Source: Methanococcoides sp. AM1
GTDB taxonomy: Archaea; Halobacteriota; Methanosarcinia; Methanosarcinales; Methanosarcinaceae
Direction: 5' to 3'
Assembly (NCBI RefSeq): GCF_900774055.1
Contig: NZ_CAAGSW010000002.1
Coordinates: 310,001-374,000, forward strand
DNA: 64,000 nucleotides
Numbering within the stretch: the stretch's first letter is position 1; every line of letters starts with the position of its first letter. The translations under genes and the position numbers were made by a program. Below are positions 53,231 through 57,051 of this stretch, piece by piece. Below the pieces are notes generated by a model. The model had not been told where the DNA came from, did no database searches, and saw only the letters and a list, made by a program, of their open reading frames with translations.

Positions 53231-54055
53231 ATGGATGTTGTTCGGAAAAGGGCTCTTTCAAACACTGCAAAAGTGGCTATTGGTGTTCGTGATCCAACTC
53301 CTAAGATGCTATCCAGTATAGAGAATGCACACAATGAGGGATATGCACATGTTATCCTTGTAGGGGATAAGCAGGAGATCGATGCTATTGGCACTTCTCT
53401 TGAGATCATTAACACCCATGAGCCGGAGTACGTTCTGGGCGACCTGTTGGCATCGGGTTCAGTTGATGCAGCTGTCAGGGGAACTGCAAAAGCATCAGGT
53501 GCGCTGTCCCATCTAAAGCAGGTCCTGAAAATAGAGCGGCTTCATCGTATGGCTTTTCTCCTTACCTCTGAAGGTGTTCCATTCTTCCTTGCACCTGTGG
53601 GCATCGATGAGGGCAATGACCTCTCGGACAAGATCACACTTGTTAAGCTTGGTGTGGAACACATGCGCAGGTTCGGAGTTGAACCGGTGGTAGGAGTGCT
53701 TTCGGGTGGCAGGATGGACGATCTTGGAAGGCATGAGACGATCGATCGCACACTTGCAGACGCTGACTTCCTCGCAAGCCGGCTTCGGGAAAATGGTATA
53801 TGTGCAAAGCATTATACAATACTCATTGAGGACGCCATAAAGGAAGCGAACTTCATCTTTGCTCCTGACGGGATAACTGGTAACCTGATATTCAGGACAC
53901 TTGTGTTCCTTGGAGGAGGGGACGGTATCGGTGCGCCTGTATTAATGGATGACCATGTCTTCGTGGACACATCACGCGTGGGTGGTCACTACACAAAAGC
54001 TATTATGCTTGCAAGTGCCCTTGTGGATATGAAAAACGAGAGAAACAGATCTTGA
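53231..54055 (+). CDS. mtxX: Methanogen MtxX (phosphotransacetylase-like) protein
   Basis: A 274-residue protein of the MtxX family, with the fold of phosphate acetyl/butyryl transferases; TPKMLSSIENAHNEGYAHVILVGD and LGGGDGIGAPVLMDDHVFVDTS are its typical stretches. It is methanogen-specific and was named for its position beside mtrA- and mtrH-like genes in Methanosarcina. Catalysis is not established. No strong ribosome site precedes the ATG. Followed by mtxA and mtxH. Confidence 0.88.
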   Translation: MDVVRKRALSNTAKVAIGVRDPTPKMLSSIENAHNEGYAHVILVGDKQEIDAIGTSLEIINTHEPEYVLGDLLASGSVDAAVRGTAKASGALSHLKQVLKIERLHRMAFLLTSEGVPFFLAPVGIDEGNDLSDKITLVKLGVEHMRRFGVEPVVGVLSGGRMDDLGRHETIDRTLADADFLASRLRENGICAKHYTILIEDAIKEANFIFAPDGITGNLIFRTLVFLGGGDGIGAPVLMDDHVFVDTSRVGGHYTKAIMLASALVDMKNERNRS

Positions 54056-54081: not shown

Positions 54082-54675
54082 ATAGAAACTGTTGCATGTG
54101 GCTGGCCTGTTGTGAAAGGAGATTGCATTGCCGGAATGAATGATTCCTGTATTGCAGTTATAACTCTTGCAAGCTCACTTGAACCTTATGATGAAGCTGC
54201 CATGTGGGGTAGCTGCAAGACCGAGAACCTTGGTGCAGAGAAGATCATTATAAACACGGTTTCAAATTCGAATATCAGGTATCTCCTGATATGCGGTAAT
54301 GAATCCAGGGGTCATCTTGCAGGAAAGACACTTATTGCACTTCACAAGAACGGCATCGATGAGGATGGTCGGATCATTGGTTCGGATGGAGCGATACCCT
54401 TTATCGAGAACGTCGGAAGGGATGTAATTGAACGTTTCCAGAAGCAGGTAAGTCTCATCGAACGCATCGGCCTGATCGACATTGATGAGATCCGCCGGAT
54501 CGTTGATGAGTATAAAGAAAAAGAAGGTCCGTACTGTGAAGCAGCTTTCGTTGTAGAGAGCGCAAAAAAGAAAAGCAGGCCGGTTATGGATGTCACTTCC
54601 GGGGATATCATGGTATCAGGCAATGTAATGCTTGATTCGGCTTCCGGAATTGTTTGTGAAGTAGAGTCCGATTAA
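54082..54675 (+). CDS. mtxA: MtrA-like corrinoid protein (non-canonical start)
   Basis: A soluble homologue of MtrA, the cobamide-carrying subunit of methyl-H4MPT:coenzyme M methyltransferase. The motif GWPVVKGDCIAGMNDSC (from about residue 7) is the MtrA N-terminus, and ICGNESRGHLAG holds the histidine equivalent to the cobalt-ligand His. PFIENVGRDVIERFQKQV is also typical. The C-terminal membrane anchor of MtrA is absent. The conserved part begins upstream of the first canonical start (GTG, 54112): the frame runs back to a stop at 54070-54072 with only ATA at 54082 after GAGGTG. I report the ATA start (197 residues); the GTG version would lose the GWPVV motif. Confidence 0.8.
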   Translation: METVACGWPVVKGDCIAGMNDSCIAVITLASSLEPYDEAAMWGSCKTENLGAEKIIINTVSNSNIRYLLICGNESRGHLAGKTLIALHKNGIDEDGRIIGSDGAIPFIENVGRDVIERFQKQVSLIERIGLIDIDEIRRIVDEYKEKEGPYCEAAFVVESAKKKSRPVMDVTSGDIMVSGNVMLDSASGIVCEVESD

Positions 54676-54743
54676 GTAGGATCTAATTAAGTATCGATTT
54701 AGTATTATCTTTATCATTGTTATATTTCGTAGAGGTTATGTTC

Positions 54744-55676
54744 ATGTTCAGGTTCCAGAAAGAGCAGGAGATCGTCAATATCGCAGGTGTGAAGATCGGA
54801 GGTCAGCCGGGTGAGCTGCCAACAGTACTTGCAGGTACCATATTCTATGAAGGTCACAGCATCGTGGAAGATGCGGATGCTGGCATATTCGACAGGGCAG
54901 AGGCAGAAGTCCTTGTGAACCTGCAGGATTCCATGTCCGATGAGACCGGGAATCCCGCGATCGTCCATATCTTCGCCAACACCTTTGAGAGTATGCAGAA
55001 GTACATCGATTTTGTAACATCAGTAAGCGATTCTCCTTTTATCATCGATTCCCCGCAGCCTGCTGTGAGGATGGCTTCTGCAGAATACGTGACCGACATA
55101 GGACTTGCCGATAAGACGATCTACAATTCCATTAACATGAGCATAAGTGACGATGAATGTGCTTCTCTTGCAAATTCTGACATCGATAGTTCTATAATTC
55201 TCGGTTTCAATGCAATGGACTCATCCCTTGATGGGAGGATGGCATTGCTGGAGAACGGGGGTAAATTGATGGACAGGGGGCTGCTGGAGGTTGCCGGAGA
55301 ATGTGGTATAAAGAACATCCTTATCGATCCAAGCATTACTCCCATGGGTGATGGTGCAGGTATTGCTCTTCGTATGACAATGACAGCAAAGGCGAAATGG
55401 GGATACCCTGTAGGGTCCGGTATCCACAATGCTCCTTCTTCCTGGAGCTGGCTTAAGGCTAAAAAGAAGGAAGATCCACTGGTCTATCAGATGTGCGATA
55501 TAGGTACGGTTTCCATGCAGCAGCTTGCAGGTGGCGATTTTGTTCTCTATGGTCCTATCGAGAATGCACGCTACACCTTCCCACTGGCCGCCATGGGTGA
55601 TATTATGGTCGCGGAGGCATCTTCCGATCTTGATATAGAACCATCATCCTCACACCCGCTTAACCTGCTGGTGTGA
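54744..55676 (+). CDS. mtxH: MtrH-like methyltransferase
   Basis: A 310-residue homologue of MtrH, the methyltransferase subunit that moves a methyl group between a tetrahydromethanopterin-type carrier and a corrinoid protein. FRFQKEQEIVNIAGVKIGGQPGE is the MtrH opening, and the TIM-barrel strands (FIIDSPQPAVRM, IILGFNAMDSS, NILIDPSITPMG) match a pterin-binding fold. ATG at 54744 is favoured over 54738: AGAGG at 54731-54735 is 8 bases away. With mtxA it probably forms a separate methyl-transfer module. Confidence 0.9.
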   Translation: MFRFQKEQEIVNIAGVKIGGQPGELPTVLAGTIFYEGHSIVEDADAGIFDRAEAEVLVNLQDSMSDETGNPAIVHIFANTFESMQKYIDFVTSVSDSPFIIDSPQPAVRMASAEYVTDIGLADKTIYNSINMSISDDECASLANSDIDSSIILGFNAMDSSLDGRMALLENGGKLMDRGLLEVAGECGIKNILIDPSITPMGDGAGIALRMTMTAKAKWGYPVGSGIHNAPSSWSWLKAKKKEDPLVYQMCDIGTVSMQQLAGGDFVLYGPIENARYTFPLAAMGDIMVAEASSDLDIEPSSSHPLNLLV

Positions 55677-55752: not shown

Positions 55753-57051
55753 ATGAAAGAACTTAAGATCAGTATATCTGATGAGTTGTATGAGGAACTA
55801 TCTAATGTTCCTGATAAGGATTCCTTTTTGATAGAACTTCTTGAGAACAAGCTGAATATATCTGCTGAGGATAATGCCGGCTCGGTGAAAGATGCTGATG
55901 AACCTTGTTTTGAAGAACCACAGGATATTGCTGGAACAACAGGTGATGTTCCTGATGGTGGCAATGATACTGACGACCAGGTTACAGAAGTTATGAATGC
56001 TGGGGACGCCGGTGAAGAAAATCCAGATGAAGCATACCTTGAACTTGAAGATGTCTTTGAAGAGGAAGACATAATTGCTGATGATGAGGGAAATTATCTG
56101 ACTTTATGTTGCAATTGCAGTCTTGTAGGGCCGGATGATCTTGAAGATTGCAAAGAACCTGTTCTCGATGTCGACTTTGAACATCCTGCCGGGGAGAGCT
56201 CAGAGTCAGTTTCGGAGTTAAATCCTTCTCCTGAATAGGAAAACAATTCTTCTATTGAAAATATGGCATGTTTTGAGAGCATCATCGTTGATCTTACAGA
56301 TCGTATCTGTGAGCTTGAGATGCAGGTCATTGATATGAATGCCAGTGTTCAGTTGCTTAAAGAAAGATCCATCTTATCCGATACCGGGGATAATAAAGCA
56401 GAGTCTGATCCGGTCTTTCCTGCAAGATCCGCTAGCATTGTGGCAGAATGCCAGGAAGAAGCAGTTCCATATGCTACTCTTTCCTTCCCGGAGTTGAAGA
56501 TCCCTCCGGAATTGCTATCTGATGTTGAAGTACCGGTAGCAGAAATTCAGCACGATGATGTAATTGATACTTCAATTCCAATTGATACTCGTTCTCCGGA
56601 TGTTCCGGAAGATGCCGTTGGAAAAGCTCCTTTTTCGGAATCATTCAAACCTGTGCTATTCGATGTTGATACCTCCCCGCTAACTTCTTCAGGGAATCCA
56701 ATGGTAAGTCCGGGTCAAGAGGTCTCATCATTAACTGATGGTGAAGTTGCTACTGATAATATAGAGGATGAGGATGGTGGGGAAAATTCTTCCCAGATTG
56801 CTAAGCCGGATGCACCTGTCCCGGATGTAAATTTTCCGGTTGCGAACAAGCTTGAAAGTTGTATATTTGCTTATCTTCCCTCTGGGTCAGATGTAAAGAA
56901 AGATGTGATCAAAAGCCTTCTTTCCAAGAGATATCTGGATGACGAAGTGGAGTCTAAGATCGATCAGCTTCTTTCAGCAGGGAAGATCTCCAATATTGTA
57001 AAGGATGACAGTGTCTACCTTATGAGGCTTCCTGAAAAGAAATCTGCATGA
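55753..57051 (+). CDS. Acidic protein read through an amber codon (putative pyrrolysine)
   Basis: One open frame of 432 residues interrupted only by TAG at codon 162 (56236-56238). The N-terminal part (1-161) has a ribbon-helix-helix-like start (KELKISISDELYEEL) and a long acidic linker with CCNC. The eight codons after TAG (gaa to aat) lead into the second part: a coiled-coil-like helix (about residues 175-200), a disordered acidic Pro-rich linker and a helical C-terminus (about 360-425, KKDVIKSLLSKRYLDDEVESKIDQLLSAG) resembling a winged helix. The internal ATG at 56263 has no ribosome site. Methylotrophic Methanosarcinaceae read TAG as pyrrolysine. If TAG stops, two separate genes (55753-56238 and 56263-57051) remain. 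Confidence 0.65.
56236..56238 (+). other. In-frame amber (TAG) codon
   Basis: TAG at codon 162 joins two frames with no other stop between them. It is the only TAG at the end of a frame among the roughly sixty genes whose stop I read, all others using TAA or TGA. The surrounding sequence is GAA TAG GAA. Confidence 0.8.

Follow-up and report, generated by a model that had tools for sequence, protein, structure and literature searches.

An in-frame TAG at a lysine position of a conserved Methanococcoides gene is probably read as pyrrolysine

Introduction

Does an in-frame TAG divide a locus beside the mtxXAH genes of Methanococcoides sp. AM1 into two genes, or is it read through to give a single protein? 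The locus lies at positions 55753–57051 (+) of a 64,000-nucleotide stretch of contig NZ_CAAGSW010000002.1 (the window). An earlier note, made from the letters of this DNA, had proposed one gene whose product either contains pyrrolysine (Pyl) or arises by read-through. We followed up this proposal by comparison with related genomes, a census of stop codons in the source genome and a structure model of the predicted protein.

One reading frame across an in-frame TAG

The frame at 55753–57051 (+) comprises 433 codons, with a final TGA and one internal stop, the TAG at codon 162 (56236–56238, +), which is the proposed pyrrolysine codon. With TAG taken as sense, the gene encodes 432 residues. Mechanical ORF calling splits the locus into 55753–56238 (161 aa) and 56263–57051 (262 aa). 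Our translation agreed with the earlier note that the frame runs past codon 162 without another stop, and the 270 codons after the TAG are likewise free of frameshifts. The claim that the other stops of the window are TAA or TGA also held: among predicted genes 100 aa or longer, 24 end in TGA, 23 in TAA and one in TAG, the last being codon 162. Both parts of the protein are acidic, as had been observed, with D+E making up 31% of residues before the TAG and 20% after it.

The ATG at 56263–56265 (+) is not credible as a separate start. As the earlier note had remarked, it has no ribosome site; the sequence upstream of it (GAATAGGAAAACAATTCTTCTATTGAAAAT) contains no Shine-Dalgarno-like stretch. 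Its Met is replaced by Thr in one relative (G020).

An open frame after the TAG was dropped as evidence by itself. At five further places in the window a TAG likewise has 100 or more open codons both before and after it; we regard these as probable shadows cast by long genes in other frames. The case for a single gene therefore rests on homology.

Orthologues carry a lysine codon at the TAG site

Relatives were sought with the read-through protein in 112 Methanosarcinaceae genomes. Full-length, unbroken relatives were present in three congeneric species, with identities over all 432 residues of 81% in Methanococcoides vulcani SLH 33 (G025), 69% in G019 and 67% in G021; the source genome itself belongs to a Methanococcoides close to M. 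vulcani. Shorter relatives, also continuous, were seen in further Methanococcoides and in other genera. The two halves are joined in the orthologues of all genera examined, and homologues with the halves as unlinked genes, the finding that would have spoken against the original proposal, did not appear. A sense codon at the TAG site, which the proposal had led us to look for, is present as well: all three nearest orthologues have AAG (Lys), which points to one substitution, A to T, in the lineage of the source species as the origin of the TAG. Elsewhere the codon is GAA in G020, and AAT in G016 and in G017, which we take to be M. burtonii, although the stretch is loosely aligned in these two. 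Among the relatives compared, TAG at codon 162 is confined to the source species, where it is known from one assembly. The homologues of the gene in G057 and G048, from another genus (g10), end at TAG, so that TAG does serve as a terminator among relatives.

Selection on the two parts was compared by the Nei-Gojobori method. Before and after the TAG, dN/dS was 0.42 and 0.49 between the source and M. vulcani, 0.44 and 0.36 between the source and G021, and, around the corresponding site, 0.46 and 0.42 between M. vulcani and G021. These ratios indicate purifying selection on the part after the TAG. Nonsynonymous and synonymous changes in this part stood at 16:8 in the source lineage and 4:4 in M. 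vulcani, a difference that is not significant (Fisher p = 0.43).

Domain architecture and gene neighbourhood

A structure model was built from an alignment of 19 relatives and was poor overall (mean pLDDT 55). The most conserved N-terminal part is a ribbon-helix-helix (RHH)-like segment (MKELKISISDELYEEL...; residues 1–39, 55753–55869, +) with helices at residues 10–17 and 22–39, in which M1, K2, L4, S7, S9, D10, L12, L16, F25 and L34 are invariant in the alignment. An acidic linker follows (residues 41–162, 55873–56238, +), with pLDDT below 50 over most of its length, and ends with the TAG codon, so that the TAG site lies in a poorly conserved region predicted to be disordered. In the M. burtonii orthologue (L043:5764-7692) a repeated motif (SPSLPDPLDSPL...) has undergone a long expansion within the linker; this region varies freely.

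Just past the TAG begins a long coiled-coil-like helix (residues 164–209, 56242–56379, +), predicted by the model and by weak profile matches to coiled-coil proteins. A second disordered linker is predicted between this helix and a C-terminal winged-helix-like domain (residues 366–425, 56848–57027, +), whose conserved columns make it the best conserved part after the TAG and whose pLDDT exceeds 90 at residues 370–420. Its best PDB matches in Foldseek are winged-helix regulators, for example HlyU, BlaI and PerR, all weak, with E 0.03 or worse.

Sequence-profile searches of Pfam, NCBIfam and the PDB yielded no family for the protein. The cut-off for the ribbon-helix-helix (CopG/VapB) families was not reached; the best match, PF02697, had E 0.25 and 12.6 bits against a cut-off of 27.9. 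The protein does not match MtmB, MtbB or MttB, in keeping with the earlier view that it is not a methylamine methyltransferase. The accompanying guess that it is a regulator fared less well: the predicted C-terminal fold does resemble winged-helix regulators, but no Pfam or NCBIfam family matches, and we regard the guess as reasonable but weak.

Upstream of the gene lie mtxX (methanogenesis marker 4; 53231–54055, +; NCBIfam TIGR03270), mtxA (MtrA-like; 54112–54675, +; NF010654) and, directly adjacent, mtxH (MtrH-like; 54717–55676, +; TIGR01114), all assigned from family matches and synteny. The position of the studied gene between mtxX(AH) and ilvD is kept in most Methanosarcinaceae examined. 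For mtxXAH, a part in transferring methyl groups from trimethylamine or methanol has been suggested (Harms and Thauer, 1997, as cited in PMC4632066).

Pyrrolysine machinery and use of TAG in the genome

The earlier note had suggested a check for pylTSBCD, and the source genome proved to contain a complete cluster of pylT, pylS, pylB, pylC and pylD. PylS was matched at 420 bits, and adjoining its gene are a tRNA-Pyl with anticodon CUA and PylB (TIGR03910, 569.5 bits). From gene order and sequence, we identify ORFs in the cluster as putative PylC and PylD; a search with PylC_N (PF21360) gave no match, and PylC was recognised directly in the cluster instead. Each of two mtmB copies has one TAG within an otherwise open frame, and mttB (TIGR02369) carries an in-frame TAG too.

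Stop codon usage was surveyed in a 530 kb sample of the source genome, taken in stretches and including methyltransferase and pyl neighbourhoods fetched on purpose. The main filter retained 308 genes, ending in TGA (150), TAA (153) or TAG (5). All five TAG-ended ORFs, namely both mtmB copies, mttB, an aspartate ammonia-lyase-like gene and the studied gene, continue as long coding-like sequence. The chance of finding no TAG end among 303 genes would be 2e-7 if TAG ended 5% of genes, and 0.05 if it ended 1%. A sixth TAG-ended gene, pylB, emerged only at laxer thresholds. Its 42-codon extension scores as non-coding, so TAG may still terminate in places, which, like the incomplete amber read-through reported for M. 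acetivorans (PMC2933860), counts against Pyl insertion in the studied gene. TAG would thus rarely be a terminator in the source genome, perhaps in pylB only.

Several TAG codons outside this set were also recorded. In a small sample from G074, presumably M. acetivorans, one TAG end lacked a coding extension among about 94 genes. An ORF of M. burtonii (L118:14240-15532, −) without an NCBIfam match has an in-frame TAG and is coding-like on both sides of it. A predicted gene of M. vulcani (L073:10629-11036, +) ends in TAG followed, after one codon, by a second stop, possibly a true TAG stop with a back-up. The pylB TAG (L038:3913-5046, −) stands directly before pylC, as it also does in M. vulcani (L075), and could be a real stop or lead into a Pyl-dependent 42-codon extension overlapping pylC. 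According to a review, TAG closes the pylB genes of M. burtonii, M. mazei and M. acetivorans (PMC2933860). When all TAG triplets of the 530 kb sample were compared with M. vulcani by tblastn, 359 'supported' sites were returned; the comparison was discarded as uninformative, since genomes this closely related also share antisense and out-of-frame translations.

The aspartate ammonia-lyase-like gene (L063:8237-9592; G000:C4:338237-339592) contains its in-frame TAG as codon 210. This site is TAG in seven of nine Methanococcoides genomes; in the remaining two it is TGG and CAG, which each differ from TAG by one base. A TAG kept across the genus in a well-known enzyme family is not a set of sequencing errors, and its conservation indicates that TAG is read as sense outside the methyltransferases in Methanococcoides. 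In the source genome, this gene and the studied one thus carry in-frame TAGs although they are unrelated to methylamine use.

The roughly 100 nt after the UAG of the studied gene were examined for RNA structure. No stable fold was predicted there (z −0.28 against shuffled sequences), in disagreement with PYLIS-dependent decoding; decoding of this codon need therefore not depend on a local element. PYLIS has been reported to be dispensable (PMC2933860).

Discussion

We consider it very probable that the locus is one gene in which a lysine codon, AAG, mutated to TAG at position 162 in the source Methanococcoides lineage, and from which a full-length protein containing Pyl is made. The original suggestion of a pyrrolysine-containing or read-through protein is thereby strengthened by the fused AAG orthologues, by pylTSBCD and by the in-frame TAGs of mtmB and mttB. 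With pyrrolysine and tRNA-Pyl (CUA) at hand, and with TAG seldom serving as a stop, the cell would read the UAG with Pyl-tRNA; the ribosome would insert pyrrolysine and complete all 432 residues. Within a disordered acidic linker just ahead of the coiled coil, the exchange of Lys for Pyl may have been nearly neutral and so have persisted. Pyl is probably tolerated here rather than needed, because the linker is disordered, relatives have lysine and the TAG is unique to the source species. The protein itself is probably a DNA-binding or scaffold protein, as its RHH-like N-terminus and winged-helix-like C-terminus suggest, tied by position to mtxXAH.

Other readings of the TAG were weighed against this one. 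It could be a base-calling error in the single assembly from which it is known, the true codon being AAG and the protein having lysine; the TAG occurs in the source genome only and is one base away from the AAG of its relatives. However, the assembly has a completeness of 99.93% and a contamination of 0.11%, the region is otherwise without frameshifts, and isolated A-to-T errors are rare in assembled contigs, all of which make a sequencing or assembly error improbable. A recent pseudogene, truncated by the TAG and with a dead second half, would fit the restriction of the TAG to one lineage and the slight excess of nonsynonymous changes after it (16 vs 8 synonymous). Such decay is very unlikely in view of the 270 codons that remain intact, a dN/dS that is purifying, a ratio of changes not significantly different from that of M. 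vulcani and the cell's own TAG-decoding genes. We give hardly any credence to two separate genes: an in-frame ATG does follow the TAG by eight codons, at 56263, but it has no ribosome site, its Met is not conserved and the orthologues are fused throughout.

The TAG might also be a partial stop that acts as a switch, yielding a short RHH-acidic form when Pyl is scarce and the full protein when methylamines induce Pyl. In the model it separates the RHH-like part from the coiled coil, and the gene adjoins mtxXAH with its proposed role in methyl transfer from trimethylamine or methanol (as cited in PMC4632066). Amber read-through is moreover incomplete in M. acetivorans, where an introduced amber codon gave only 20–30% full-length product (PMC2933860). 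Yet this TAG is found in one species and is kept by no relative, no RNA element follows it, and TAG seems almost never to end genes in the source genome, so that we regard a switch as unlikely. Its extension to a pyrrolysine-gated regulator, whose short RHH and long forms would report methylamine use to the neighbouring mtxXAH genes, is if anything less probable.

With Pyl insertion as the preferred reading, the gene can be compared with known systems. It shares an in-frame TAG and the pyl machinery with MtmB, MtbB and MttB; in those enzymes Pyl is conserved and catalytic, whereas here it would be specific to one species, and the protein is not a methyltransferase. An archaeal 'Pyl code', in which TAG generally stands for pyrrolysine, was reportedly described by Kivenson and colleagues in Science in 2025, with Methanococcoides burtonii among the organisms studied. 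Our data resemble such a code in that gene ends at TAG are almost absent from the sampled genome, where several unrelated genes also have in-frame TAGs; they differ in that pylB appears to end in TAG, and they comprise a 530 kb sample read from sequence alone. In its N-terminal pattern and predicted C-terminal fold the protein resembles RHH (CopG/VapB-like) and winged-helix regulators, although it reaches no family cut-off and its Foldseek matches have E 0.03 or worse.

The closest parallel is Thg1, the tRNA-His guanylyltransferase of M. acetivorans, whose species-specific in-frame amber codon is translated as Pyl that is dispensable for activity (PMC2933860; likewise Heinemann et al., 2009, as cited in PMC3639795). 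In both cases a single species has acquired an in-frame amber codon in a conserved gene that does not encode a methyltransferase. Thg1 is a different protein, in which Pyl has been physically observed, whereas at codon 162 we infer it; the site studied here is lysine in relatives and sits in a disordered linker. By analogy, the gene would follow the Thg1 pattern, described as neutral evolution, and a neutrally acquired Pyl is our best reading.

The locus would provide a clean, polarised change from lysine to pyrrolysine outside the methyltransferases. It also illustrates how standard gene calling splits TAG-containing genes in two. Together with the TAG of aspartate ammonia-lyase that is conserved across the genus, it lends weight to the idea that Methanococcoides uses TAG mainly as a sense codon.
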